A stretch of 64,000 nucleotides of DNA. It comes from Streptomyces sp. MUM 178J (GTDB lineage Bacteria > Actinomycetota > Actinomycetes > Streptomycetales > Streptomycetaceae). The notes below the pieces were generated by a model. The model did no database searches. It saw only the letters and a list, made by a program, of their open reading frames with translations, and was not told the origin of the DNA. The stretch is from assembly GCF_022414575.1 (NCBI RefSeq), contig NZ_JADWYQ010000035.1, forward strand, positions 13,884 through 77,883, given 5' to 3'. The translations under genes were made by a program, and so were the position numbers. Below are positions 1,061 through 23,007 of this stretch, in pieces (within the stretch, counting starts at the first letter, position 1; each line of letters starts with the position of its first letter).

Positions 1061-1528
1061 TCAGCCGTCGGCGGCCAGGCCGGTCCGTGGCACGGTGCCG
1101 AGGTGTGCTCCGACCCGCTTGACCATCAGCGCCATCTCGTAGGCGACGAGGCCGACGTCGGAGTCGGCGTCGGCGAGCACCGCCAGGCAACTGCCGTCGC
1201 CGGCGGCCGTGACGAAGAGGAACGCCTCGTCCAGTTCGACGACGGTCTGGCGGACCTGTCCGGCGTCGAAGTGCCGGCCCACGCCCTTGGCGAGGCTGTG
1301 GAACCCGGAGGCGACGGCGGCGAGGTGCTCGCCGTCCTCACGGGTGAGATCGCGGGACGCACCGGTGGCAAGGCCGTCGCGGGAGAGCACCAGGGCCTTG
1401 TGGATGCTGTCGACGCGGTCGACCAGTTCGTCGAGGAGCCAGCCGAGTTCGCCGGAGCCCCGCGCTGTGCTGCGGGCGGGCGCATCGGCGTCGGCGGCGT
1501 TGGATGCTGCGGCGTACGGTGCGGTCAT
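1061..1528 (-). CDS. cvnB: Conservon Roadblock/LC7 protein CvnB
   Basis: A 155-aa Roadblock/LC7 domain protein. The motif GWLLDELVDRV (residues ~28-38), followed by ALVLSRDGLA and the FLFVTAAGDGSCLAVL strand pair, is diagnostic of actinobacterial CvnB. Roadblock proteins act as dimeric partners and regulators of small GTPases, here presumably CvnD. The ATG overlaps the cvnA stop codon in an ATGA arrangement. The first 25 residues are Ala/Asp-rich and probably disordered. Confidence 0.94.
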   Translation of the reverse strand: MTAPYAAASNAADADAPARSTARGSGELGWLLDELVDRVDSIHKALVLSRDGLATGASRDLTREDGEHLAAVASGFHSLAKGVGRHFDAGQVRQTVVELDEAFLFVTAAGDGSCLAVLADADSDVGLVAYEMALMVKRVGAHLGTVPRTGLAADG

Positions 1529-4212
1529 CGACCGTCCCCCTCCGTTGTGGTTCTGGTTGTTCTTGCGGTTCCGTCGTTGCGTGTGTCGTTGCGTGTGTCG
1601 TTGCGTGTGTCGATCCGGTCGCGCATGTCGCCGTGCATGTCGCCGGAGTGGTTCTCGCGGCGGCCGCGCTGCCAGCCGCGCTGCATCGCTGACATGCGGT
1701 CGCGGACCTCCTCCGGGTCCCGCTCGGTGTCCGGCCGGAGACCGAGCCGGGTCGTCTCGGGTTCCGCTTCACGTCGGAGCCCGCGGGCGAGGCTGGCCTG
1801 TCTCACCCGGCGGGGCAGACCGCCGGCCGGACCGGGCGGCTGCGGGGCGCCGCCCACGGGAGGCGGTGGCGGATCCGGCGGATCGGGTACGGGAACGAGG
1901 GTCGGGGGCTTGCGGCGCGGCAGCGGCGTCGGTCCGCCGTGCCGCGGCTGCGGCTGCGGCTGCGACTGCGACTGCGACTGCGACTGCGACTGCGACTGCG
2001 ACTGCCGATGATGCCATTCGTCCGGCACGGAACGGCGTCGCCCGCGGGTGCCGGCCAGGAAGAACTCGTCGCCGGACGGGTCGTCGACGTCGCAGCGCGC
2101 GTCCCGGTCGACAGCGCCGTCTGCCAAGTCCACGGTGACGCTGAAATCCGGTGGTCCGACCGGGGGTTCGAGCTCCACCGGACCGTCGGGCAGAGCCGAC
2201 GGCCGCGCCGAGAGCGCACTGAACATGCCGTCGCCGCGCTGCCGCCGGCCGCCGCTCCGCCGCCCGGCGGGACTCTCGCTCTTGCGGTCCAGCCGGAAGC
2301 CGGCTCCCTGGGTCTCGGGGGCCTCGGTGAGCAGGGCGGCCGGGATGAAGACGACCGCGGTGGTGCCGCCGTACGGGGAGGGCTGGAGGGAGACCCGTAC
2401 CCCCTGGCGCCGGGCGAGCCGGCTGACGACGAACAGACCGAGCCGGTCTGTGTCGGACAGTTCAAACTCAGGTGTCTCGGCCAGTCGGAGGTTGGCGTCG
2501 AGCAGGGCGTCCGGAGCCATGCCGAGACCGCGGTCGTGGATCTCCAGCGTGAAGCCGTTGGCGACCTGCTCGCCGTGCACATGCACGGCGGTGTGCGGGG
2601 GCGAGAACACGGTGGCGTTCTCGAGGAGTTCGGCGATGAGGTGGGTGAGATCGGCGACGGCGGGGCCGCCGACGCCCAGCCGGGGCAGTCTGCGCACCTC
2701 GATGCGTTCGTAGTCCTCGACCTCGGCGACGGCCGCCCGGACGACGTCCATCAGCTGGATCGGCTTGCGCCACTGGCGGGAGGGAGCGGCCCCGGAGAGG
2801 ATCACCAGCCCCTCGGCGTGGCGGCGCATCCGGGTCGTGAGGTGGTCGAGGCGGAACAGGTCGGCGAGTTCCTCGGCGTCCTCGGTGCGCCTCTCCATGG
2901 CGTCGAGGAGCGTGAGCTGACGGTGCAGGAGCACCTGGTTGCGGCGGGCGAGGTTGACGAAGACCTCGGAGACCCCGCGGCGCATCTCGGCCTGGCGCAC
3001 GGCCGCCTCGACCGCCGCCCGCTGGAGGGTGTTGAGGGCCTGCCCCGCCCGGCCCACCTCGTCCTCGTCGTATTCCAGGCGTGGGGCTTCGGTCTCGACG
3101 TCCACCTGTTCGCCCGCGGCGAGACGGCGCATGACGCTGGGCAGCCGTACGCCGGAGACCTCGTGGGCTTCTCTGCGCAGCCGGGTGAGCGAGCGGACGA
3201 GGTCACGTCCCACGCGGACGGAGACGATGACGGAGAGCAGAAGGGCGAGGAAGCCGAGAACGCCGGCGATGCCCGCCTTCACGAAGACCTCGCGGACGGC
3301 GGGTTCCACGCGGTCCTGGAAGCGGTCGCCCGCTGCGGCGCCCTCGCGGGCGAGGTCGTCGAGGACGGGGCGGGCGGCCTGCCGCCAGCGCTCCGCCTCC
3401 GCCGCGCCGAGGCCTGTGGCCGGGCCCTGGGAGATGAGGCGTTCCTCGGCCTCGCGCAGGGGCGCGGTCCGGGGGCTGCGCCAGATCTGCCGATGGATCT
3501 CGCGGTCGCGGGCGGCCAGGTGCTCGTACCCGACGTCGTAGTGGATTGTGCGCTGCGCCACGAGGTCGGTCAGCGCGCGGATCTCCGGGCCGGTGATCTT
3601 ACGGGTGGTGAGGGCGGAGGCGATCAGTGCGTCTTCGCGGGCGAGCGTCTCTCGGGCACGCATCAGGCTGACCAGGGCGCGGCCTTGGCGCTCCGTCGTG
3701 ACGTCGTCCAGCACGAGGAGGGTGCTCAGGAAGCTGTGGCAGGGGTCGACGACGCGGTTGTAGAACTCCAGGGCCTGTCGGCGGGAGATCTCGCCCGCTT
3801 CAACGGAGCGGCGCAGGGCGTCCAGTCCGTCCAGCGCGTCCAGCAGGGAGTCCAGCTTCCGGGCGCTCTCAGGACGCATGTCCTCGCGGACGCCGGAGCG
3901 GTCGGCGTTCTCCCTGACCTTCGCGACTGCGCGGTCGGTGGCCTGGCGCTGCCGGTGAAGCGCCGGCAGCGCTTCGGCCGCTCTGGGGTCGGCGAGATAG
4001 ACGAGCGTCTGGCGGCGTTCTTCCTGGATGACGTGGGCGATGTCCTCGACGGGGCGGCCGACCTCGCGGGCGACCGAGCCGACGGCCAGCAGTCTGCCCA
4101 CTTCGCGGCCGGTGAGCACGGTGGCGAACCCCCACAGGGCGGTGAGGGAGACGAGGGGGATGAGCAGCAACGTCACGATCTTCCGGCGGATCGACTTCCC
4201 GCGAAAGCGCAT
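1525..4212 (-). CDS. cvnA: Conservon sensor histidine-kinase-like protein CvnA
   Basis: An 895-aa membrane sensor. A short basic N-terminus precedes TM1 (~residues 12-32). Next come a periplasmic nitrate/nitrite-sensing type helical domain (~40-300), TM2 (~310-335, rich in Leu/Val), a HAMP-like linker and a HATPase_c domain with the N-box LLENATVFSPP (~525), G1 box DRGLGM (~560) and a GLFVVSRLA G2-like box (~590). I see no canonical phospho-acceptor histidine motif, as is usual for CvnA. The C-terminal ~250 residues are low-complexity (Ser-Gln, Pro-Gln and Asn-Asp-Thr-Arg repeats) and hold the motif LPRRVRQASLA shared with the second CvnA of this window. The start has a GGGGGAGG ribosome site. 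Confidence 0.93.
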   Translation of the reverse strand: MRFRGKSIRRKIVTLLLIPLVSLTALWGFATVLTGREVGRLLAVGSVAREVGRPVEDIAHVIQEERRQTLVYLADPRAAEALPALHRQRQATDRAVAKVRENADRSGVREDMRPESARKLDSLLDALDGLDALRRSVEAGEISRRQALEFYNRVVDPCHSFLSTLLVLDDVTTERQGRALVSLMRARETLAREDALIASALTTRKITGPEIRALTDLVAQRTIHYDVGYEHLAARDREIHRQIWRSPRTAPLREAEERLISQGPATGLGAAEAERWRQAARPVLDDLAREGAAAGDRFQDRVEPAVREVFVKAGIAGVLGFLALLLSVIVSVRVGRDLVRSLTRLRREAHEVSGVRLPSVMRRLAAGEQVDVETEAPRLEYDEDEVGRAGQALNTLQRAAVEAAVRQAEMRRGVSEVFVNLARRNQVLLHRQLTLLDAMERRTEDAEELADLFRLDHLTTRMRRHAEGLVILSGAAPSRQWRKPIQLMDVVRAAVAEVEDYERIEVRRLPRLGVGGPAVADLTHLIAELLENATVFSPPHTAVHVHGEQVANGFTLEIHDRGLGMAPDALLDANLRLAETPEFELSDTDRLGLFVVSRLARRQGVRVSLQPSPYGGTTAVVFIPAALLTEAPETQGAGFRLDRKSESPAGRRSGGRRQRGDGMFSALSARPSALPDGPVELEPPVGPPDFSVTVDLADGAVDRDARCDVDDPSGDEFFLAGTRGRRRSVPDEWHHRQSQSQSQSQSQSQSQPQPQPRHGGPTPLPRRKPPTLVPVPDPPDPPPPPVGGAPQPPGPAGGLPRRVRQASLARGLRREAEPETTRLGLRPDTERDPEEVRDRMSAMQRGWQRGRRENHSGDMHGDMRDRIDTRNDTRNDTRNDGTARTTRTTTEGDGR
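1573..1608. repeat. 12-bp tandem repeat, three units, in 3' end of cvnA
   Basis: Three exact head-to-tail copies of gtcgttgcgtgt lie inside cvnA. They encode a repeated Asn-Asp-Thr-Arg tetrapeptide close to the C-terminus. The reading frame is preserved because the unit is a multiple of three. Confidence 0.9.
1944..2004. repeat. 6-bp microsatellite in cvnA (Ser-Gln / Pro-Gln tract)
   Basis: About ten copies of a hexamer, mostly gcgact with gcggct variants at one end. The tract encodes seven Gln-Ser pairs and then Pro-Gln pairs in CvnA. Copy-number change by slippage would lengthen or shorten the tract without a frameshift. Confidence 0.9.
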
Positions 4213-5297: not shown

Positions 5298-8200
5298 CTA
5301 CGGCACGGGCGCGGCGTCGGCCTCCTCTGCGCCGCCGGCCGGAACCGCGATCCCCTCGGGGGCATGCCCGGTCGCGGGCTCCGGCACACGGTCCGCGGCG
5401 CGCCGGAACATACGCGTGGCGGTGATCTCCCCGTGCACGGTCTCCCCTGCCGGGTCGATCTGCGGCAACCCGGGCCGCAGATGCTCCTCCACGCTGATGT
5501 ACTTCAGCCCCGCCCGCAGATCCGCGTCGTTGCGCAACCGGATGACCAGCGGGAACTCCGCGAGCGCCGTGGTGTCGAACAGACCCGTCGTATAGAGCAG
5601 CTGCACACCGAGCGCGTCGGAGACGGCGCGCTGGAGCTCCAGCAGATAGGTGGCGTTGGCGCGGCCGATCGGATTGTCGAGGAACAACGTGCCGGCGTGC
5701 CGGTGCCGGTCGCGTCCGCGGTCGTTGCTGCGGAGCGCTGCCATCGTGCAGTACAGGGCGATGGCAGCGGTGAGGAGCTGGCCGCCGGAGAAGACGTCGC
5801 CCATCTGCCCGACCGGGACCCGCTCGGCGCGGAGCACGGCGTCCGGCTTCAGGATCTCCACCGCCACGCCCTTGGGCTGCAGCGCCGCCTGAACGCCTCG
5901 CAGCAGCAGCGACATTCCGTCCCTGCGGCCGTCCCCGTACACGCCGGAAGGGCTCTTCTTCACGGCGGCGCGGGTGGCCTCGTCGATGACTTCGCCGAGC
6001 CGTTCCGCGAGGGTGGCCTGGTCCGGTTCCTCGAACCGGATCCGCAGGAACTCCTGTCCCGACCACTCGCCCAGGCCCTCGGGGAGCCGGGACAGCCGCT
6101 GCGCCGAACGGAGCGTGGCCAGCGCGGTCTCGACCAGGCCGCGCAGCCGGTCCACGATGGTGTCGCGATTGCGCTCCAGCTGCGCCAGTTCGTCGGTGAG
6201 CACCCGCAGCCGCGGAGCGAACGCCTCCGCCCACTTGGCGGCGTGTTCGGGCAGGGCGGCGGCCGGGAGCTCCCGGATCTGCTGGCGGGCCGGGGTGCGC
6301 ACCTGCTCGTAGCGGGTGGAGTTGGCATGCCGTACGAGCACGTCGGACGCCTCGCGCACGGCCGCCTCTGCGGCTGACAGATCGGTCGCACAGCCGCGCA
6401 GCGAGCGCCGGGCCTCGGCGGCGGCGCGGCGTGCCTCCTCCAGGCCTGAGGCGTACGGTTCAGACACCTCGGCCGGCTCGTCCTCCGGCTGGTGGTCGCG
6501 GAGCAGGTCACGCAGGAGCGCGGCGGTCTCTTCGAAGCCGCTCGCCGCGTCCTCGGCGGTGCGGTGTGCTTGGAGGAGGCCGCTGTGCGCGGCGCGCGAC
6601 GCCTCCAGCTCGTCGGCGCGGGAGGCCAGTTCGGCGTTGGCGGTGCGCAGCAGGGCCTGGGCGTGGTCGGCGTCCGCGGGGGTCAGCTCGTCGGGGAGCC
6701 CGGTGTGCGCCTCTCCGTCGGCGGGGGCGAGGCGCTCCGCCTCGCCTCGGAGCCGGCCGAGCTTCTCGCTCGCCTCCGAGGCCCGCTGCTCCAGCAGCTG
6801 GACGTGGGACTCGGCGCGGGCGGCGGCCGCCTGACGGGAGGGGCCGTCGGCGCCGTCCATGCTCTCCAGGAGCTGTGCGGCGCGGGTGCGGACCCTGTTG
6901 GTGAGGCGGTCCAGTTCGGCGAGGGCGGCGCTCTCGTCGCTTTCGGCGCGGGCCTGTTCGGCGCGGAGGTCCGCGCCGACGCCCACCTTCTCGTACAGCT
7001 GGGACGCCGCCCGATAGGACTCCCGAAGGGCGGGCAGGGACGGGCGGTGCGCGTCGGGGCCGACTTCGGCGCCGTCGTGTGCGGCGCCGTCGGCGCGGGC
7101 GTCATCGGGGGCGTTCTCGGGGGCGTTCTCGGGGGCGCCCGCGATCTCGGCGCGTTCGGCACGCAGGGCGCGGGCCGTGCGGTGCGCGTCGTCGGCAGCG
7201 CGCTGGGCGGCCCTGCGGTCCTCGTCCGCGGCCTTGGCCCGCTCCAGGCAAGCGGTGGCGCGGGCCTCGGCCTCGGCTGCGTCATCGGCCAGTTCGCGCA
7301 GTTTGACCTGCCAGCCTGCGCGTTCACGCAGCCGGAAGGCGAGACCTGCGAGGGCGTCGGCGGAGCGGCGGGCACGCTGGGCAGCCTCCTGACGCTCGTC
7401 GCGGACCCGTGCGGCGTCGGCCGCCGCCTCTTCCGACTCGGTGCGCACGGCTCGCGCCTCGGCCAGGGTCCGCTCGGCCTCTGCGGTTGCCTCGCGGGCC
7501 GACTGTGCGGCCTCTGCCAGTTCGGCGAGCATGCCCGCGGGGCAGTCCGCCCGCCACGAGCCGAGGCGGGCCGCGAGCGAGCGGTCCCCGGCGAGCCGTG
7601 CCGCCAGTGCGCGGATCTCCTCGTCCCGCGCGGCGGCACGTGCGCGCAGCGCCTGCCGTTCCTCGTCGGCGGCGTGCTCGTCGTGCATGGCGGGGTTCGG
7701 CGGCACGAGGAAGACGTCCGCGTCGCCGGCGCCGGGGCCCGGGACGGGGGCCAGCAGGGCGGCCGCGGTGCCGACCGCCACGGCGGAGCGCGGCAGCAGC
7801 GCCGCGCCCGCGAGCACATCGCGTGCGCGGGCGTGCGAGGCGGGGTCCGTGATGACGACGCCGTCGACCAGTTCGGGCCGCGCGGCGAGCACGGCCGCGT
7901 GGTCGGCGGGGTCGACGGCCTGCGCGAGATAGCGCCAGCCCGGCAGGGCGGGGATCGCGTGCTCGCCGAGGAACTCCACGGCTGCCAGCACGTCGGGGCT
8001 CGGCGGCAGCAGCCCCCCGTCGCCCAGCGCGCCCAGGATCCGCGCGTCGTCGGCGGCCGCAGTCCGCAGCTCGAACAGCTGCCGTTCGGCGGAGGCGATC
8101 GAGGCGTCGAGCAGTTCCCGCAGCTCGTCCGCGTACCGGTCGAGTTCCTCGGCTGTCAGCGGCCCTTCCGCGGTACGGCGGGGAGTCCGGGCCCCGCCCT

Positions 8201-10712
8201 GCGCGCCGCGACCACCCGCGGCCTCGGGCTGCGCCGCCCCGGCGCGGCCGCCGGGCGTCTGACCGTGCGCAGTCCGCTCGGCGTGAGCCGTGGGGGTTCC
8301 GGGCTTGGCGGAGTCCGGGGCCGTACCGCCGGGACCGGTCGCGGCCTCAGCCGGTGCGGCCCCCGTGGAACCGGGCACGTGGCCGTGCGCGGTGTGCACG
8401 GTGTGTTCGGTGCCGGTTGCGCGCCCGGGGTTGGCCGAGGCGGCCGGAGCGGGGCCCGTCATATGGCCCGGAGCGGCCCGCCCAGCCTCACCGACACCCG
8501 ACGCATGCCCGGCGGGACCCGCTGTCGTACCGGTGTCGGGCGCGGCGGCGGATGCGCCGTCGCCCTGCCCTGCGCCCTCGTCACCAGACGGGTCCTGTCC
8601 TGCCTCGCCGGATGGGCCGACAGCGGCGCTGACGGCACGACCGGAACCCGCCCGGGCCTCGGCCGCGTACGTCGCCGCACCTGCGGGACGGGCGGAGGCG
8701 TCGGCAGCCGGGGGGGCTGCCGCCTCCGCGCTGTTCGCCACACCTGGCTCGGCCGTGGGGACGCCGTGCGCGGCGTCCCCACGGCCGTCGGCGACCGGCG
8801 CCGTGTCCCCGGCCGGCCCCGCGGCGGGCGGGGCCGGGGCGGTCGCGGGCTCGGGCCGCAGGGCCGCCCTGGGCAGGCTGAGCAGTTCCGCCAGACGGTC
8901 GTCCTCGGCGATGGACCGGGCCGCGCGGCGCTCGGCGTCGTAGGCGCGTTCCGCGGCCTGGGCCGCGTCCGCGGCCCGGGCCGCGGTGAGTTCGGCGCGG
9001 GACTCGGCGGCGGCCGCCTCCTTCGCGCGGTCGGCCGTGCCGCGTGCGGTCTCACGGGCGGCGTTCCAGGCGGCCACGGCCGTCTTCTCCGCGTCGCTGG
9101 CGGCGAGCGCGGCGCGCGCCGGGTCGGCATCCGGGGCGCTGTCGTCGAGCCAGCCGGCCCGTACCGCCTCGGCGGTCTCCTGCTCGACCTCGGCGAGCCG
9201 CTGCCGCAGATGTCCGATCTCGCTGCGGGCGCGCTGTGCTTCGGTGGCCGCGGCCGTGGCGTCGCGGTGGGCGACCTCGCCGGCCTCCTGGAGCGCGGCG
9301 GAGCGCGCCTCCTGCTCGTCGGCCACGCGCTCGCCGTCCCCGGCCGCCCGGTGCAGGGCGCGGACGAGCTCCGTCGCTGCTCTGGCGCGGGCGGCGAGGG
9401 CCGGGGCTGCGTCACGCTCGGCCTCGCGGATCGCCGCGGCGACGCGTGCCGAGCGGTCGGCCGCGGCTCGGTGGCGCAGCACGGCTTCGGCCGCCTGCCA
9501 GGCGGAGTGGAGGGTGCGTGCGTCGTTCAGCTCACGGCGCTGGGCGGCGGCGCTCTTCTCCGCCGCGGCGAGTGCCAGCGAGGCGTGGCGGTAGGCCAGT
9601 TCCGCGGCGACGAGGGAGGCGCGGCTACGGGTCTCTTCCGCCTCCGTCACCCGGTCGGCAGCGGATGTGACCTGCTGTGCGAGGTCCGCGGCGCGCCCGC
9701 GTTCCCCGGCGGCGCGGGCGGACAGCTCGCGGTTGAGCGTACGGGTGCGGCGCTCGGCGCTGGCGTGGATCTCCCGGGTGCGGGTGCGGGTCTTTGCGGC
9801 CTCCACGATCCTGCCGAGCAGTTCCACCGAGCCGGCGGTGAAGTCGCGCTCCGCGGTGAGTTCGGCGCGGCGGCCCACCTTGTTGCCGAAGTTGCCGACG
9901 AGGTCGGCGAGTCCGTCGGTGTCCCGCGTGTCGGTGACGGCCCGCAGCAGCAGATCGGTGAAGTCCGAATCCTTCTTGACCGCGAAGAGCCCGGCCGCCT
10001 CACCCTCGTCGGCGTTCATCTCGCGCTGGTAGCGGAAGAGTTCGGGGTCGAGGCCGAGGTCTTGGAGGTGTTCCTTCCAGCGGTCGTGGATCTCCTCCCA
10101 GTACACCTCCAGGTGCGGGTAGGCCTTGCCCGCCTCGGTGAGGGCGTCCCTGAAGCCCTTCATGGTGCGGCGGCGGCCCTGCGCGCCGGACGCCCCTTCG
10201 ACGGGCGGGCGGACGGCGGTGGATTCGGCGACGGGGAGGTTGTCCAGGCTGAGTCCGGGGCCGGGCCGGAAGGAGTACCAGGCCTCGGCGAACTTGCGCG
10301 GGTCGTTGGAGATCTGGCGGCCGCGCCACTCGCTGACCTTGCCGACGACGATCAGTTCGCCGGTGAGCGTGTGCTGCCACTCCAGGGCGACATGCCCGCA
10401 GTCGTCCGCGAGGAGGAACTTGCGCAGCACGCCGGAGCTGGCGCCGCCCAGGGTGTTGCGGTGGCCCGGCAGCATCACCGAGAAGATCAGCTTGAGGAGG
10501 ACGGACTTGCCTCCGCCGTTCTCCAGGAAGAGCACGCCGGCCGGCGCGGGGCGGCGCGGCGGGCCGGCCGGCTCCTCCTCGAAGAACTCGCCCTGGGCCG
10601 GGGCGGGGTTGGGCACGGGTTCGCCGACTCCGCGCAGGTCGAGCACGGTGTCGGCGTAGCGCGCACCGGCCGGCCCGATGGAGTAGAGGCGTACCCGGGA
10701 CAACTCGTACAT
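5298..10712 (-). CDS. SMC/MukB-like coiled-coil ATPase
   Basis: An 1804-aa ATPase with SMC architecture. The head P-loop ENGGGKSVLL is near residues 64-73, followed by a long Ala/Glu/Arg-rich coiled coil (~300-610), an Ala/Gly/Pro-rich low-complexity segment (~620-845), a hinge-like globular part (~910-990), a second coiled coil (~1000-1560), the ABC signature VFSGGQ (~1638) and a Walker B-like LFLDNPIG (~1672). The usual catalytic Glu after the Walker B Asp is Asn here. MukB is ~1490 aa, so this protein is longer, mostly through the central segment. It is the last gene of a three-gene operon with MukF- and MukE-like partners and likely acts in chromosome organisation or anti-plasmid defence. 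No JetD-type nuclease gene is adjacent. Confidence 0.85.
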   Translation of the reverse strand: MYELSRVRLYSIGPAGARYADTVLDLRGVGEPVPNPAPAQGEFFEEEPAGPPRRPAPAGVLFLENGGGKSVLLKLIFSVMLPGHRNTLGGASSGVLRKFLLADDCGHVALEWQHTLTGELIVVGKVSEWRGRQISNDPRKFAEAWYSFRPGPGLSLDNLPVAESTAVRPPVEGASGAQGRRRTMKGFRDALTEAGKAYPHLEVYWEEIHDRWKEHLQDLGLDPELFRYQREMNADEGEAAGLFAVKKDSDFTDLLLRAVTDTRDTDGLADLVGNFGNKVGRRAELTAERDFTAGSVELLGRIVEAAKTRTRTREIHASAERRTRTLNRELSARAAGERGRAADLAQQVTSAADRVTEAEETRSRASLVAAELAYRHASLALAAAEKSAAAQRRELNDARTLHSAWQAAEAVLRHRAAADRSARVAAAIREAERDAAPALAARARAATELVRALHRAAGDGERVADEQEARSAALQEAGEVAHRDATAAATEAQRARSEIGHLRQRLAEVEQETAEAVRAGWLDDSAPDADPARAALAASDAEKTAVAAWNAARETARGTADRAKEAAAAESRAELTAARAADAAQAAERAYDAERRAARSIAEDDRLAELLSLPRAALRPEPATAPAPPAAGPAGDTAPVADGRGDAAHGVPTAEPGVANSAEAAAPPAADASARPAGAATYAAEARAGSGRAVSAAVGPSGEAGQDPSGDEGAGQGDGASAAAPDTGTTAGPAGHASGVGEAGRAAPGHMTGPAPAASANPGRATGTEHTVHTAHGHVPGSTGAAPAEAATGPGGTAPDSAKPGTPTAHAERTAHGQTPGGRAGAAQPEAAGGRGAQGGARTPRRTAEGPLTAEELDRYADELRELLDASIASAERQLFELRTAAADDARILGALGDGGLLPPSPDVLAAVEFLGEHAIPALPGWRYLAQAVDPADHAAVLAARPELVDGVVITDPASHARARDVLAGAALLPRSAVAVGTAAALLAPVPGPGAGDADVFLVPPNPAMHDEHAADEERQALRARAAARDEEIRALAARLAGDRSLAARLGSWRADCPAGMLAELAEAAQSAREATAEAERTLAEARAVRTESEEAAADAARVRDERQEAAQRARRSADALAGLAFRLRERAGWQVKLRELADDAAEAEARATACLERAKAADEDRRAAQRAADDAHRTARALRAERAEIAGAPENAPENAPDDARADGAAHDGAEVGPDAHRPSLPALRESYRAASQLYEKVGVGADLRAEQARAESDESAALAELDRLTNRVRTRAAQLLESMDGADGPSRQAAAARAESHVQLLEQRASEASEKLGRLRGEAERLAPADGEAHTGLPDELTPADADHAQALLRTANAELASRADELEASRAAHSGLLQAHRTAEDAASGFEETAALLRDLLRDHQPEDEPAEVSEPYASGLEEARRAAAEARRSLRGCATDLSAAEAAVREASDVLVRHANSTRYEQVRTPARQQIRELPAAALPEHAAKWAEAFAPRLRVLTDELAQLERNRDTIVDRLRGLVETALATLRSAQRLSRLPEGLGEWSGQEFLRIRFEEPDQATLAERLGEVIDEATRAAVKKSPSGVYGDGRRDGMSLLLRGVQAALQPKGVAVEILKPDAVLRAERVPVGQMGDVFSGGQLLTAAIALYCTMAALRSNDRGRDRHRHAGTLFLDNPIGRANATYLLELQRAVSDALGVQLLYTTGLFDTTALAEFPLVIRLRNDADLRAGLKYISVEEHLRPGLPQIDPAGETVHGEITATRMFRRAADRVPEPATGHAPEGIAVPAGGAEEADAAPVP

Positions 10713-10778
10713 GGCGGTCGGACTCTCAGTCGTCTTCTCGGTCGGAGGCTGGCGGGTGTGGCGGGGCGGGCGCCCGGC

Positions 10779-11690
10779 TCACGTGTGGAAGGGCAGGCCG
10801 GCGCCGGGGGCCAGCTCCAGGTCGTCGCCTTCGGGCGGGGGCAGGAGGGTGGCGGAGCCGTCGGACACCGGGACGACGCCGAGGTCCAGCAGTTCGGCCA
10901 TGGCGGCGCCGCCCGCCATGTCGCGCACCTGGAGCTGGTAGCGGGCGGTGGTGCGGTACGAACCGCCCGCGTCGTCTCCGGTCCGCTGGAGGAAGCCGGA
11001 GTCGGCGAGGAAGCCGACTGCCTTGCCGATGATGCCTGTGGTGGAGCCGGCGAGGCGGCGGGCGTCCTTGGTGGCCCCGGTGGCGCTGCGACGCGCATAG
11101 ATCCGCCAGGCGGCTTCGAGCCCGGGGGCGTCGCTGGCGGGGTCGGTGTTCTCCCCCTGCTGCTCGGCCCGTTCCTCCAGGCGGCGGCAGGCCTGGCGGA
11201 CGAAGGCGTCGACGCCGTTGACGGTGATGCGGCCGATATAGCCGTCGTCGGCGAGGTCTTCGGGGCGGGGAAAGGCGAGGGCGGCGACGGCGAGGTGCGC
11301 GAGACCGTGCAGAAACCGGTCGGCGGAGTCGGCGGCGGCACGGCGGGCGTAGTCGCTCATGCGGACGGCGAAGACCGAGTCCTCTCCTGCGGTGACGGCC
11401 ATCCCGGCGCGCGGGGAGACCTCGAGGACGACGAGCCCGAGGCCGGTGGCCACGGCGTCGGCGAGCCGGGCGAAGGCGCCGTCCTCCCGGTAGCGGCGGA
11501 GCAGATCCGTGTACTCGGCGTCGCGGGCGGGGAGCAGCTTGGGCTGGAGTCCGAAGGAGACGAGCCGCGCGGCGTCGGCAGCGTCCGCGGGTGTGACGGC
11601 CCCTCCTGTGGCGGGGGGCGCCGCCTCGGGTGCGTCCGCCTCACGCCACGCGTCGCTGCGCTCCGCGGTGTGGGAGGGGTGGTCGCTCAC
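10779..11690 (-). CDS. MukE/MksE-like SMC partner protein
   Basis: A 303-aa soluble protein with no clear catalytic motif. An internal segment LRRYREDGAFARLADAVATG (~residues 64-83) and a following alpha/beta part look like a winged-helix protein. Position and size (between a kleisin-like gene and an SMC-like ATPase) match MukE, MksE or JetB, which bridge the kleisin and the SMC heads. The family assignment is by context and weak resemblance. The GTG start overlaps, by GTGA, the stop of a 24-codon frame that itself overlaps the upstream gene. The next gene starts 66 bp downstream. Confidence 0.65.
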   Translation of the reverse strand: MSDHPSHTAERSDAWREADAPEAAPPATGGAVTPADAADAARLVSFGLQPKLLPARDAEYTDLLRRYREDGAFARLADAVATGLGLVVLEVSPRAGMAVTAGEDSVFAVRMSDYARRAAADSADRFLHGLAHLAVAALAFPRPEDLADDGYIGRITVNGVDAFVRQACRRLEERAEQQGENTDPASDAPGLEAAWRIYARRSATGATKDARRLAGSTTGIIGKAVGFLADSGFLQRTGDDAGGSYRTTARYQLQVRDMAGGAAMAELLDLGVVPVSDGSATLLPPPEGDDLELAPGAGLPFHT

Positions 11691-11761
11691 GGCTGGGGCT
11701 CCTTGTCGGGGGTGGTGCGGTCGGCGGTGCGGCGGGGGGCTGGGGCGGGCGGCGCGCTCAT
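11687..11761 (-). CDS. Possible 24-codon coupling peptide between SMC-operon genes
   Basis: A 24-codon open frame beginning MSAPPAPAPRR fills the gap between the kleisin-like and MukE-like genes. Its ATG overlaps the upstream stop (ATGA) and its stop overlaps the downstream GTG start (GTGA). This perfect double overlap suggests that ribosomes pass through it to reach the next cistron. It may be a coupling device or simply chance. Alternatively, the MukE-like gene once began at this ATG and a one-base indel split it. No homologue is known to me. Confidence 0.35.
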   Translation of the reverse strand: MSAPPAPAPRRTADRTTPDKEPQP

Positions 11762-13314
11762 GCGGAGTCCTTGCGGTCCGCGGCCATGCCCGCTGCGTCC
11801 AGCAGTGCCGTGCCGACGATGAGGTCTGCGCCGCCGAACTCCGGGTCGTCCAGTTCCGTGCCGTCGTCGACCGCGAAGAGCAGGCGCTGTTCGCCCTGGC
11901 GGTAGGCGGTGCCGACGGGCGGGCTGGCCGCGTGGACGGCCAGCAGGGCGACCAGATAGGGCAGTTCGGGGTCGCGCTTGCGGGCTTCCGCGAGCAGCCC
12001 GGAGAGACGGCGCGGCGCGTCGTGTTCGAGATCGAGAAGTTCCATGGCTCCGGCGAGCTGCTCTTCGCTGAAGCGGCTGTCGTCGGGGGTGGCGATCAGG
12101 TCCGGCTCGGGCATCTCCGCGCCCAGGTGTTCACGCTCGACGGGCGGGGTGAGCAGGAGGTCGACGAGGTCGCCGAGGCGCACCGAGGCGGGGGTGCGCA
12201 GTCCGGCGCCGCGGGCGAAGTACGCCTCCGTGACGCGTGTGGCCTGCTCGACGGGGAGGGGCAGCAGGGGCGCGAGGAGTTGCCCGTACAGATCGAGGCC
12301 GGCGCGGGCGGCAGGCGGGGCGAATGCCTGGCGGTCCTGTTCGGCGCGGAACAGGGGGCCGGCCTCCAGGAGCCTGGACTGGAGCTGGGTGTGGCGGCGG
12401 ATGCAGTCCTTGACGATGTCGACCAGCTCGGCGGCGCGCCTCTTGTGTTCGGGGTCGGTGGCCTCGTCGCGTGCCTTGCGGATGTTCATCAGGATGGCGT
12501 TCTCGTGGCGGTAGCGGTCGGCTACGTGGTCGAGCGCCTCGGCGATCATGTCGGGGACGGTCTCGAGCCAGTCGACGGCGCGCACATTGCGGCGGGTGGC
12601 CTCCAGCGTGCGGCGCAGGGTCTCCGCGTACTGGACGGTGCGGTAGCGGGCCTGCTCGGCGGCGAGCTGGGCGTCGGCGAGGCGACCGCGGCTGATGAGG
12701 ACCTCGAGTTTGACCTCGGCGGCGATCTGGGCGCTGGTGACGTCCGTGTCGAGCGCGCCGACCAGGACGTTGACGGCTTCGTCGGTGGTGCGGAGGTAGA
12801 CGGCGCCGCCGTAGCCGGGGACTTCCTCGATGAGCTTGAAGTCGTAGTCGCGGCGGGTGTAGACGCCGTCGGGACCGAAGGTGCCGTACACGGCGCGGAA
12901 TCCGCGGTCCACGCTGCCGACGTTGATCAGGTTCTCCAGCACCCAGCGGGCCACGCGCTCGTGCTCGGCGGCGGGGCGGTGGGAGGTCTGGGCGGCGACG
13001 CGCGGCATCAGCCGGGCCACTATCTGGTCGTGGTCGGCTCCGGTGTCGAAGTCCATGGTGAGGGTGACGAGGTCGATCGCGGCGAGGGCGACCTCGGCCA
13101 TGGAGTAGACCGAGTACTCGCCGGCCAGATTGGCCTTGCGCACGTCGAGGTCGTGCAGCGGCGCGGTGCAGGCGAGCGCGCGCAGCCGCCGCGCCAGCCC
13201 TTCGTCGGCGGCCGGGCCCTGAGCGGGCCGCGGCCCCGCGCTGAACTGGGGCGGAACGAAGTCCGTCGAGGCAGGCGAAGTCACGGTGCACAGGTTAGGT
13301 CCTTGCACTGACAC
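11758..13314 (-). CDS. Kleisin-like (MukF/MksF-type) subunit
   Basis: A 518-aa, mostly helical protein. An N-terminal alpha-helical, possibly winged-helix, region (~35-190) is followed by a long charged helical stretch (~190-350) and a C-terminal domain rich in short helices. The first position in an operon ahead of MukE- and MukB-like genes is the usual place of MukF/MksF/JetA. The GTG at 13314 is used here, but a GTG about ten codons later is equally possible because neither has a strong ribosome site. The role inferred is bridging the two ATPase heads and recruiting the MukE-like partner. Confidence 0.65.
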   Translation of the reverse strand: MSVQGPNLCTVTSPASTDFVPPQFSAGPRPAQGPAADEGLARRLRALACTAPLHDLDVRKANLAGEYSVYSMAEVALAAIDLVTLTMDFDTGADHDQIVARLMPRVAAQTSHRPAAEHERVARWVLENLINVGSVDRGFRAVYGTFGPDGVYTRRDYDFKLIEEVPGYGGAVYLRTTDEAVNVLVGALDTDVTSAQIAAEVKLEVLISRGRLADAQLAAEQARYRTVQYAETLRRTLEATRRNVRAVDWLETVPDMIAEALDHVADRYRHENAILMNIRKARDEATDPEHKRRAAELVDIVKDCIRRHTQLQSRLLEAGPLFRAEQDRQAFAPPAARAGLDLYGQLLAPLLPLPVEQATRVTEAYFARGAGLRTPASVRLGDLVDLLLTPPVEREHLGAEMPEPDLIATPDDSRFSEEQLAGAMELLDLEHDAPRRLSGLLAEARKRDPELPYLVALLAVHAASPPVGTAYRQGEQRLLFAVDDGTELDDPEFGGADLIVGTALLDAAGMAADRKDSA

Positions 13315-13733
13315 CGGTCTAAACGGCGCAGAAACCTCGCGGTGCGGTCACCCTCACCATCCCCGGCGGCGCATGCCGGCCCTGCCGTCGGCGGACGGGC
13401 CCGGCACGCCGACCGCTCTGTGCGCGGCGCGGCGCCTGGGGTGCGGAGTCGCCGACGCGGGTCCGGCGTGCGGGGCGGTTCTTCCGGTGTCCGGGGCCAC
13501 GGGCTGCGGCCCCGGGGCGGGCGACGCGGCGAAGGCCGAACTGCGCGCCCGCAACGGCGCGTGCGGGAGGGCAGGACCGGTGTCGTCCTGACTGCGCGGA
13601 GCGCGCGGGTCCCGGTGCCCGACCCGGGCGGGACGGTCGGCGGCCACGCCGCAGGCCGCCGCCTCCGAGCGCGGCCGGGCCGTTGCCGCCGTCCGCGCCG
13701 CAGGGCCGGGCCGCGGCCGGGGCCGCCGGCGGT
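13315..13733. other. GC-rich intergenic region without a recognisable gene
   Basis: About 420 bp between the start of the SMC-like operon and the end of the GntR gene. Open frames in it are short, arginine/proline-rich and lack ribosome sites. It should contain the operon promoter, but I could not pick out one with confidence. Confidence 0.5.
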
Positions 13734-15906: not shown

Positions 15907-16667
15907 CACCGGTCTCCATCGATCTCAACGCCGACCTCGGCGAAGGCTTCGGCCGCTGGCGGCTGACCGATGACGACCAGCTGCTGTCGGTCGTCACCAG
16001 CGCCAATGTGGCGTGCGGCTTCCACGCCGGGGACGCGGCCACCATGCGCCGGGTCTGCGGCGCCGCAGCCGAGCGGGGGGTGCGGATCGGCGCCCAGGTG
16101 GCGTACCGGGACCTGGCCGGCTTCGGCCGGCGCGCGATGGATGTGCCGCGGGACGAGCTGGCCGCCGAAGTCGCCTATCAGATAGGGGCGCTGGAGGTGT
16201 TCGCGCGGGCCGCCGGGTCCGCCGTCTCCTACGTCAAACCGCATGGCGCGCTCTACAACCGCGTCGTCCATGACGAGCAGCAGGCCGCTGCCGTCGTCGA
16301 GGGGGTCGAACTGACCGGTCTGCGGCTGCCGCTGCTCTGTCTGCCCGGATCGGCGCTGCACGCCCTGGCGGAGAAGGCCGGTCTTCCCGTCGTCGCCGAG
16401 GCGTTCACCGACCGCGCCTACACGGCCGAGGGCACGCTCGTCCCCAGGGCATCGGACGGTGCGGTCATCCACGACCCGGCGGAGGTCGTGGAGCGCTCCG
16501 TCTCGCTGGCCCGCTCCGGGGTCCTCACCTCCCGCTGCGGCCGGCCGGTCGCGGTCCGGGCACGCTCGCTGTGCCTCCACGGCGACACCCCGGGCGCGGT
16601 CGGACTCGCCCGGCGTATACGGGCCCGGCTGGAGGGCGCGGGCGTGCGGGTGGAGGCGTTCGCATGA
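15903..16667 (+). CDS. pxpA: 5-oxoprolinase subunit A (LamB/YcsF family)
   Basis: A 254-aa LamB/YcsF protein, close to the ~245-aa E. coli PxpA. The N-terminal IDLNADLGEGFGRW, SANVACGFHAGD, and YVKPHGALYN motifs are diagnostic. PxpA joins PxpB and PxpC to cleave 5-oxoproline to L-glutamate with ATP, in the cytosol. The GTG start overlaps the transporter stop, and its own stop overlaps pxpB by ATGA, so the operon is tightly coupled. An upstream open extension in the same frame runs through the MFS gene and is not coding. Confidence 0.95.
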   Translation: MTPVSIDLNADLGEGFGRWRLTDDDQLLSVVTSANVACGFHAGDAATMRRVCGAAAERGVRIGAQVAYRDLAGFGRRAMDVPRDELAAEVAYQIGALEVFARAAGSAVSYVKPHGALYNRVVHDEQQAAAVVEGVELTGLRLPLLCLPGSALHALAEKAGLPVVAEAFTDRAYTAEGTLVPRASDGAVIHDPAEVVERSVSLARSGVLTSRCGRPVAVRARSLCLHGDTPGAVGLARRIRARLEGAGVRVEAFA

Positions 16668-17284
16668 AGGTGCTGCCCGTGGGGGACCGGGCTCTGCTCG
16701 TCGAGTTGGCGGACGCCCCGGAGGCTCAGGCCCTCCACGCCGAGCTGCTGCGCCGGCGGGCCGCCGGATCGCTGCCTCCCGTGCGCGAGATCGTGCCAGC
16801 GGCGCGGACCGTCCTGCTCGACGGTCTCGACGCCCCCGCCGCGCTGGCGCGGCAGCTCCCCCAGTGGACTGTTCCGCCGCTTCCGCCACGCGCCCGGGAC
16901 GTGATCGAGATCCCCGTCCGCTACGACGGGCCGGATCTGGCCGAGGTCGCGGCGCACTGGCGGACGTCCGAGGAGGAGGCGGTGCGCATCCACACGGCCG
17001 CCGAGTACCGGGTCGCGTTCTGTGGATTCGCGCCGGGCTTTGGCTATCTGACCGGGCTGCCCGAGCAGTTCGCCGTCGAGCGCCGCGCCACCCCGCGCAC
17101 TTCCGTCCCGCAGGGCTCACTGGCCCTCGCCGGTCCGTACACAGGGCTGTATCCGCGCTCCTCCCCCGGCGGCTGGCAGTTGATCGGGACGACGGACACG
17201 GTGCTGTGGGACGCGGCGCGGGAGCCTGCCGCACTGCTCACGCCCGGCGCCCGGGTGCGGTTCACGGCGGAGCGCCGCCGATGA
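16664..17284 (+). CDS. pxpB: 5-oxoprolinase subunit B (KipI/AHS1 family)
   Basis: A 206-aa allophanate-hydrolase subunit 1 domain protein. VLPVGDRALLVEL opens the protein and the conserved FCGFAPGFGYLTGLP lies at ~123-137, followed by RRATPRTSVPQGSLALAG. PxpB pairs with PxpC to form the catalytic part of prokaryotic 5-oxoprolinase; the same fold occurs in the Bacillus kinase inhibitor KipI. The ATG overlaps the pxpA stop and the stop overlaps the pxpC start. Confidence 0.94.
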   Translation: MKVLPVGDRALLVELADAPEAQALHAELLRRRAAGSLPPVREIVPAARTVLLDGLDAPAALARQLPQWTVPPLPPRARDVIEIPVRYDGPDLAEVAAHWRTSEEEAVRIHTAAEYRVAFCGFAPGFGYLTGLPEQFAVERRATPRTSVPQGSLALAGPYTGLYPRSSPGGWQLIGTTDTVLWDAAREPAALLTPGARVRFTAERRR

Positions 17285-18169
17285 CCGACCGGGCCCTCGC
17301 CGTCGTACGGGCAGGGGCGCTGACCACCGTGCAGGACCTGGGGCGGCCCGGCCACGCACACCTCGGAGTGCCGCGTTCCGGCGCTCTGGACCCGTCGGCG
17401 GCCCGTCTCGTCAACCGCCTCGTGGGCAACGCGGACGGCACGGCCGTGCTGGAAACCACGCTCAGCGGGTGTGCGGTGCGGCCCCGTTGCGCGGTGACGG
17501 CGGTCGTGGGCGGCGCGCCCTGTGCCGTGACCGTCGACGGACGGCCGGCGGCCTGGGGCGCGCCGGTGCACGTCCCCGCGGGTTCGGTGCTGGAGGCGGG
17601 GCCCGCCGTCAGCGGCCTGCGGAGCTATCTGGGCTTCGCCGGGGGGATCGCGGTCGACGCGGTGCTGGGCAGCCGCTCGGCCGATCTGCTGTCAGGGCTC
17701 GGGCCGCCGCCGCTGACCGAGGGCACTGTGCTGCCGCTCGGCAGGCCGCAGGGCCCGCTGCCCGCGCAGCCGGCCGCAGCCCCCTGGCCGCGACCGCCGG
17801 CCGAGCTGGTGCTGCGGATCCGATTCGGGCCGCGCGACGACTGGTTCACGCCCGAAGCCCCGGCGACGCTCGCCTCAGGGGCGTACCGCGTCTCGTCGGC
17901 GAGCAACCGCATCGGGCTGCGCCTCGAAGGCCCCCCGCTGCGGCGGGCGGTCACGGCGGAGCTGCCCAGCGAGGGGATGGTGCTGGGGGCGGTGCAGGTG
18001 CCGCCGGACGGCCGGCCGGCGGTGTTTCTGGCCGACCATCCCACGACCGGAGGCTATCCGGTCGTGGCGGTGGTCGACGAGCGCGACCTCCCGGCAGCGG
18101 CCCAGGCGCTGCCCGGCACCCCGGTGCGGTTTGCGCCGGCGGGGCGGCCGGGTCAGGGCTCCGGCCCGA

Positions 18170-21783
<3,614 letters not shown>

Positions 21784-21787
<4 letters not shown>

Positions 21788-23007
21788 TCCCCCATTCTGG
21801 CAAGAGGAGCGTCCAGGGACACGGCGGCGAGGGCGGCGGACAGCGCGTGTTCGGCGCTGCGGTCCAGGCGGGGGCTGGTGCCCCGCGCCCAGTGGCGTAC
21901 CTCGGATCCGGCCAGCCGCAGCAGCTGCGGCAGCAGATCGGTGCAGCGGCGGGCGACCCAGCCGGTGCCCGCGGTGGCGAGCCACAGGGCGGTGTCGGCG
22001 CGGGTGGGGGCGGGCTGGTCCGGCGTCAGGGAGGGGGCGGGCCCGTGGGCCAGTCCGCGCTGGGCGAGCAGTTCATGGAAGCGCAGCGCGATCGTCCGGT
22101 GCCCGCGCTCCGAGGGGTGCAGCCGGTCGGCGCTCCACATGGCGCGGTCGGCTGCCCACGCGGCGTCGGCGGCGTGCAGATGGACCGCCCCGTAACGCGC
22201 GGAGACCGCGTGCACGACGGCGTTGACGGCCCGCTGACGTCTCGCCAGGGGGCGGGCGAGCGGCGCGGGGAGCGCCAGCATGCTGCCGGGGTCGGGGAGG
22301 CAGGCGGTGAGGACGACGGCGCCGGCCGCCGTGAGCTGCTCGCATACGGCGTCGAGCCGGCGGGTCAACGCCGCGATGTCGAAGGTCCGGCGGAGTGTGT
22401 CGTTGACTCCGACGAGTACGGAGGCGACATCGGGGCGGCAGGCGAGGGCCTCGGGGGTCTGGTGCTCGGCGACGTCCCCGCTGAGCGCCCCGCTGACGGC
22501 GAGGTTCCGGAAGTCGGCGGGTGCGCCGGACCGGCCCAGGCCTTCGGCGAGCAGCGCGGCCCAGCCGCGCCAGCCGTCGCCGACGCGATCGCCGACGCCT
22601 TCGGTGAGCGAGTCGCCGAGCGCGACGAACCGCAGCGGGCGGCGGTGCGGTTCGGGTTCGCCGGGGCGCCGGCCGAGCCGGTGGTGTGCGCCGCCGGCGG
22701 TGGCGGCCCCGCAGCGGCCGTGGCTCTGTCGGTGCGGGTGAACAGCGGCTGCGCGGCCGGCGGCTGCCTCAGCGGTGCGGTCCGGCTGACGCCGGGCCTC
22801 CGGGACGCTGCCCCACACCTCTTGCGCCGCCTCCGGTCGAGCGGCTGCGGCCGACGACACGGCCGGTGCGGTCCCTGGGCCGGGTGCGTCGGGGGCTCCC
22901 GTGCGCATCGGACAGTCCGCGCCGTGGCCAGGGCCGCGCGGCTCGGGAGTACGTCTGCCGTCGGCCCCGGCTGCGTTCCCGCGTCCTCTACCCGGCGCGC
23001 AGGTCAT
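21784..23007 (-). CDS. SGNH/GDSL-family hydrolase
   Basis: A 407-aa protein with a ~120-residue Pro/Ala-rich N-terminal region and an SGNH hydrolase core. Block [12 protein letters not shown] is near residues 124-134, the block III-like VGVNDTLRR (~195) and block [11 protein letters not shown] (~295). Such enzymes cleave esters of lipids or sugars. I kept the ATG at 23007 because it overlaps the glycosyltransferase stop by ATGA. The compositional break before residue 120 leaves a later start possible. No signal peptide is evident, so a cytoplasmic enzyme acting with the glycosyltransferases is plausible. Confidence 0.85.

Follow-up and report, generated by a model that had tools for sequence, protein, structure and literature searches.

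A Wadjet type III JetABC operon without a detectable JetD as a probable second core condensin of Streptomycetaceae

The window analysed here is a stretch of 64,000 nucleotides from Streptomyces sp. MUM 178J, and our subject within it is an operon of three open reading frames (ORFs) on the minus strand, 5298-13314, in the order jetA-jetB-jetC (Table 1). A preliminary description, made from the letters of the DNA, had read these as a kleisin-like, a MukE-like and an SMC-like gene standing together without the nuclease gene jetD, and both points held. We found that JetA matches the PADLOC model JetA3 (PDLC00567) with 623 bits and an expect value (E) of 8.4e-188 over residues 23-505, while JetC matches JetC3 (PDLC00588) with 1384 bits. 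The product of the middle gene has no match in PADLOC, Pfam or NCBIfam. Since it shares 34-49% identity with the gene at the same place in six jetD-carrying operons, we assign it, by its place and this homology, as a putative jetB in the KITE position; the JetB3 model gave one weak score and two blanks against three JetB proteins of jetD-type operons. None of the three proteins matched a Pfam model, those of MukB, MukF and MukE included, and their sole NCBIfam match was to an unrelated flagellar model, far under its cut-off. Among the records listed, homologues are named hypothetical protein, membrane protein or DUF3375 protein.

Table 1. Positions of the operon genes and associated features in the window.
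Feature	Position	Strand	Description
jetA	11758..13284	-	Kleisin of Wadjet type III, 508 aa from GTG 13284; 518 aa if from 13314
jetB	10779..11690	-	KITE-position subunit, 303 aa; extra N-terminal tail of ~30 residues; no library match
jetC	5298..10712	-	SMC-like ATPase, 1804 aa; PADLOC JetC3 and ATPase motifs
A/G/P-rich insertion in JetC	8175..8861	-	Residues 618-846, before the presumed hinge (hinge position inferred)
Promoter-like conserved stretch	13285..13324	-	Immediately 5' of jetA; alignment of 79 Streptomyces upstream regions

JetC carries a Walker A motif (ENGGGKS), an ABC signature (FSGGQ) and a Walker B motif (LFLDNPIG, residues 1676-1683) of the type III pattern L-D-N-P. Among six core JetC proteins the A/G/P-rich insertion ranges from 15 to 229 residues in length; of six JetC proteins from jetD-type operons none has more than 1 residue there, and at least 5 have no counterpart at all. 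The N-terminal tail of JetB is likewise longer than in jetD-carrying relatives. JetB of type I Wadjet touches JetD through an IFDR motif at its N-terminus (PMC10586767).

We found this operon to be nearly universal in Streptomyces. A pattern scan of a genome collection covering 84,980 species gave at least 561 confirmed JetA relatives, and the best 80 of these, which were kept, are all from Streptomyces at 87-92% identity. jetB follows jetA in 78 of the 80 loci and jetC is present in 76, the exceptions being contig ends. A JetA of at least 82% identity was detected in 98 of the 101 Streptomyces genomes searched (97 of the 98 with at least 90% completeness and at most 5% contamination). Across Streptomycetaceae, a JetA match was present in 148 of 150 genomes and in all 17 genera sampled. 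One of these, G109, the single genome of its genus (code g10), combines a weak JetA match (E 2e-15) with a strong match to the nuclease model JetD3, and on these scores it seems to lack the core form and to carry a jetD-type Wadjet; the core form is therefore counted in 16 of the 17 genera. In a class-wide sample of 296 genomes, with up to five candidates scored per genome so that remote relatives may escape, JetA at E<=1e-10 was limited to Streptomyces (28) and Frankiaceae (15, with Frankia canadensis and Pseudofrankia as examples). Frankiaceae carry JetA at 61-64% identity in 19 of 35 genomes.

We found no JetD in the window's genome with the JetD_C domain model (PF09983, E up to 10) or with JetD3 (PDLC00594, E up to 0.001). 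The neighbourhood survey across Streptomyces that the preliminary description had proposed gave the same answer: in tblastn searches with nine JetD proteins, the best E was 0.066 in the 80 core loci, 70 of which extend through the end of jetC, and in the window's own locus. At E<=1e-4 the same search found no JetD in 11 core loci of other Streptomycetaceae genera, nor in 19 loci of Frankiaceae; 12 of the latter reach at least 1.2 kb beyond jetC. A split Wadjet, in which JetABC would use a JetD encoded elsewhere in the genome, could draw on the 16 of 101 Streptomyces genomes and 18 of 150 Streptomycetaceae genomes with some JetD3 match. However, 82 of the 98 Streptomyces genomes with the core JetA, including that of the window, have no JetD3 match at E<=0.001, and the nine strong Streptomyces matches lie in complete operons of their own. 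Genome-wide searches thus reject an unlinked JetD, and we hold the split arrangement to be very improbable, since only an unrecognisable JetD would rescue it.

We asked whether the operon might instead be a decaying remnant of a Wadjet that has lost its nuclease; in its favour, jetC is broken at one core locus, L050, and an internal stop occurs in a few JetA copies. L050 is the sole exception among the 70 core JetC genes free of a contig-end cut, and in the other 69 Walker A, signature and Walker B lie in one frame. The ratio of nonsynonymous to synonymous substitution rates (dN/dS) against the window copy is 0.12 for jetA (80 pairs), 0.17 for jetB (78 pairs) and 0.19 for jetC (74 pairs, mostly the N-terminal part), which by this sequence measure shows the operon to be under purifying selection. 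Intact frames and dN/dS together refute the remnant, to which we attach almost no probability. Over one set of 65 full-length loci, median identity is 85-89% for JetA, JetB and JetC compared to 54-85% for every neighbour measured.

Wadjet operons with jetD do occur in these taxa too, and they serve as a control for the core form. We found a second JetA, at 26-54% identity, in 9 of the 101 Streptomyces genomes; a strong JetD3 match (E<=4e-44) is present in exactly those nine and a weak one (E 2e-7 to 7e-4) in seven others. In all nine paralogues the ORF directly 3' of jetC is JetD3 by PADLOC. Six more paralogous operons have a JetD after jetC by tblastn (L132, L134, L161-L163 and L164). Altogether 17 paralogous operons were fetched. 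L133 and L166 run off their contig, and each of the 15 others, which could be tested, has JetD after jetC. The preliminary description had pointed to a conserved linked jetD in relatives as evidence that would count against a nuclease-free complex. Relatives with a linked jetD exist, but they are sporadic paralogues with 24-61% JetA identity to the core form rather than orthologues. Across the 150 Streptomycetaceae genomes, 18 have a JetD3 match, strong in 13 (E<=1.4e-47). These 13 include 10 of the 12 genomes in which JetA matched more than once; the 12 hold 13 extra JetA matches, of which those of G138, G195, G225 and G146 were fetched. In Frankiaceae, the strong JetD3 matches of G473, G465 and G519 belong to separate accessory operons, G519 has a further JetD3 beside a JetC fragment on a different contig (L172), G403 has a partial JetD adjoining a JetC fragment (L170), and G385 has a JetD without a JetA match. 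Separately, locus L107 (G090:C1:1-20000) holds a complete, JetD-bearing Wadjet of type III close to the left end of the chromosome of a Streptomyces; a second copy lies near the opposite end, perhaps in terminal repeats.

Of the canonical complex, SMC and ScpA were searched for, and both are encoded on other contigs of the same genome (SMC by TIGR02168, above the cut-off of that model; ScpA by PF02616). This agrees with the earlier suggestion of a second complex beside SMC-ScpAB. Judged by these matches jetABC is not the canonical SMC complex of the cell, and since the genome also holds SMC and ScpA, we take it to be a second, condensin-like complex. In Wadjet, JetABC is a loop-extruding sensor of DNA shape and JetD is the cutter (PMC10586767, PMC12287153). 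Removal of JetD would leave a DNA motor. We hypothesize that JetABC, like Wadjet and MukBEF, has kept ATP binding and the ability to move or loop DNA, and that its activity would end in DNA organisation (compaction, or arm or sister handling) instead of cleavage. Our data suggest that jetABC is a Wadjet III core complex that lost JetD and was retained as a core second condensin of Streptomycetaceae, a reading that we consider probable. The chromosomal role is inferred: since the operon is near-universal in Streptomyces and JetD is undetected genome-wide, a condensin-like role is favoured over defence with an unlinked JetD.

The preliminary description had left the choice between a condensin and a defence system with an unlinked effector. 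The family is now narrowed to Wadjet III, and near-universality leans towards the condensin-like role. A defence function independent of JetD is unlikely but deserves weight among the alternatives. JetABC could still sense small circular DNA and act on foreign DNA through a different, unlinked effector, or through silencing or mis-segregation without cutting; the systems most closely related to it are JetD-carrying Wadjets of type III, and a review describes the mechanisms of types II and III as still to be characterised (PMC10586767). On the other hand, the core operon is near-universal, largely stable in chromosome position and under purifying selection, whereas jetD-type operons occur in 9 of 101 genomes. 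Furthermore, no window ORF tested, other than the three genes themselves, is common to the Streptomycetaceae and Frankiaceae loci. A linked replacement effector was rejected on the same ground, the other window ORFs having no match in the Frankiaceae loci.

Several observations weigh against a retained second condensin. A JetA match is missing from 16 of the 35 Frankiaceae genomes, so that in this family the complex is common yet dispensable. In two Streptomycetaceae genomes, G168 and G178, a second JetA match stands without any JetD3 match, and two others, G174 and G227, have a strong JetD3 but a single JetA match at E<=1e-10, so that the pairing of a second JetA with JetD is imperfect at these cut-offs in the 150-genome family sample. 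Because every core locus examined is free of JetD, the JetD3 matches of G109, G174 and G227 place no JetD beside the core operon. Structure prediction, which the preliminary description had put forward as a check, contributed little. The AlphaFold2 (AF2) model of JetA is weak, with a mean predicted local distance difference test score (pLDDT) of 57.4 and a best-match TM-score of 0.15; the one Protein Data Bank entry that it matches at E<=0.001 belongs to MukBEF (chain 9gm7_C, E 5.9e-5), followed by MukF and MukE-MukF chains and Wadjet-II JetABC (E 0.02-0.07). The JetB model, with a mean pLDDT of 46.6, is of too low quality for a verdict; its matches are mostly winged-helix proteins, none at E<=0.001, with MukE only far down the list. 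JetC has Asn at the position where the Walker B motif of SMC and ABC ATPases usually has the catalytic Glu. This Asn is invariant in nine aligned JetC proteins with and without JetD, and loss of the Glu as a mark of domestication was rejected, since jetD-carrying JetC has Asn there too. Finally, a tree of concatenated JetA, JetB and both JetC ends prefers two jetD-less clades, Streptomycetaceae and Frankiaceae, among jetD-carrying systems.

The concatenated tree was made by a quick method from 43 chosen rows, omits L109, L110, L133, L163, L166 and part of the core loci, and does not reject a single jetD-less clade (approximately unbiased test, p-AU 0.116). In the tree of JetA alone, all jetD-less rows fall in one clade (99/97), in favour of a single loss. 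When L164, a jetD-carrying Frankiaceae copy closer to the core form, and further Frankiaceae rows were added (L109, L110, L112, L163 and L166 being omitted), the best tree needs two changes, and one change suffices in 10% of 200 bootstrap trees. These trees suggest that JetD was lost once or twice, and a single loss is not established. Loss is simpler than gain because JetD3 is similar to the JetD1 and JetD2 models; the root was not inferred by a tree method. We tentatively propose, at somewhat less than even probability, that Streptomyces drew a second core condensin from a defence system and that Frankiaceae made an independent, sister domestication by loss of JetD, so that in mycelial actinomycetes a loop extruder directed against plasmids would twice have turned into an organiser of chromosomes.

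The operon resembles Wadjet type III in gene order, in the fit of JetA and JetC to the type III models and in JetA identity to jetD-carrying operons. It differs in that JetD is undetected in cis and in trans, in being a core rather than an accessory gene set, in the variable JetC insertion and in the longer JetB tail. As a three-gene operon without a nuclease, with jetB placed as the KITE gene from position and homology, it also has the gene layout of an MksBEF/MukBEF-type condensin. MksBEF of Pseudomonas aeruginosa is likewise a nuclease-less three-gene SMC complex alongside SMC-ScpAB, and has been proposed as a precedent for loss of JetD; in contrast, the operon here belongs to the type III JetA/JetC lineage, occurs in Streptomycetaceae and Frankiaceae, and is near-universal in one genus. 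The likeness to Escherichia coli MukBEF lies in the structural matches of the weak JetA model, but searching solved structures by sequence turned up no useful similarity for the operon proteins, apart from coiled-coil type matches in one search. MukBEF is described as a replacement of SMC-ScpAB (PMC10586767), whereas the complex here coexists with SMC and ScpA. MksBEFG, or EptABCD (JetABCD), of Corynebacterium and Mycobacterium is likewise an actinobacterial kleisin-KITE-SMC operon, but it retains the nuclease MksG/JetD and acts against plasmids (PMC10123090, PMC10586767).

We next consider position on the chromosome. The distance of the operon from the nearer end has a median of 14.9% of chromosome length in 23 single-contig genomes (sizes rounded); 21 of the 23 have it 4-20% from an end, and in 22 it is transcribed towards the nearer end. 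This position would suit an SMC complex dedicated to the arms of linear chromosomes, to plasmids or to conjugative elements, and not to folding the chromosome in general. Related three-gene operons are nonetheless present in Frankiaceae, whose chromosomes are circular, and gene position is no proof of the site of action; we regard such specialisation as quite unlikely. Streptomyces chromosomes are linear, which favours it, and an enrichment of Wadjet is reported for Actinobacteria and for the ends of Streptomyces chromosomes (PMC10482375, whose text does not contain the words jetD or jetABC). The core operon as the cause of that enrichment is unsupported, with 3 of the 23 core operons in the outer 10%.

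In the literature searched, from which subscription papers were mostly absent, we found no jetD-less Wadjet or second condensin described for Streptomyces or Frankia, and we know of no phenotype for Streptomyces jetABC. A study of SMC in Streptomyces has MksB once, in the reference list (PMC13121528). The smc phenotype of S. coelicolor is mild, with 7% anucleate spores and no temperature sensitivity (PMC4255302, table), and JetABC activity, if the proposed role is true, would help explain it. How defence SMC complexes and housekeeping condensins interconvert is considered an open question (PMC10586767). One genus with tractable laboratory species holds both states, sporadic JetABCD and near-universal nuclease-less JetABC. 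For annotation, a defence scan with the JetA and JetC models would call the core operon a defence system lacking its effector.

Upstream of jetA, the 40 bases 5' of GTG 13284 are largely conserved and promoter-like in the 79 aligned Streptomyces upstream regions, the window included, and for this reason a start at 13284 is more likely than one at 13314. The conserved stretch is likely a promoter or operator, which would give jetA a near-leaderless start. A terminator scan found no terminator 3' of jetC.

The left neighbour of the operon, which the preliminary description took for a small membrane protein, is a 205-aa ORF without a Pfam family; the right neighbour is a GntR/FCD regulator, in line with that description. 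Within Streptomyces the GntR gene is retained in 57 of 65 loci, a sensor kinase in 47 and a roadblock/LC7 gene in 22; in other Streptomycetaceae genera each neighbour occurs in 0-4 of 11 loci, and in Frankiaceae in 0 of 15. Adjoining the operon at 1061-4212 on the minus strand, a NIT-domain sensor kinase is followed by a roadblock/LC7 protein, a pair that we take to be typical of a Streptomyces conservon. On the other side of the operon, to its right, 16571-23007 holds a carboxyltransferase C/D domain, a fusion of hydantoinase/oxoprolinase A and B, and a GDSL lipase.

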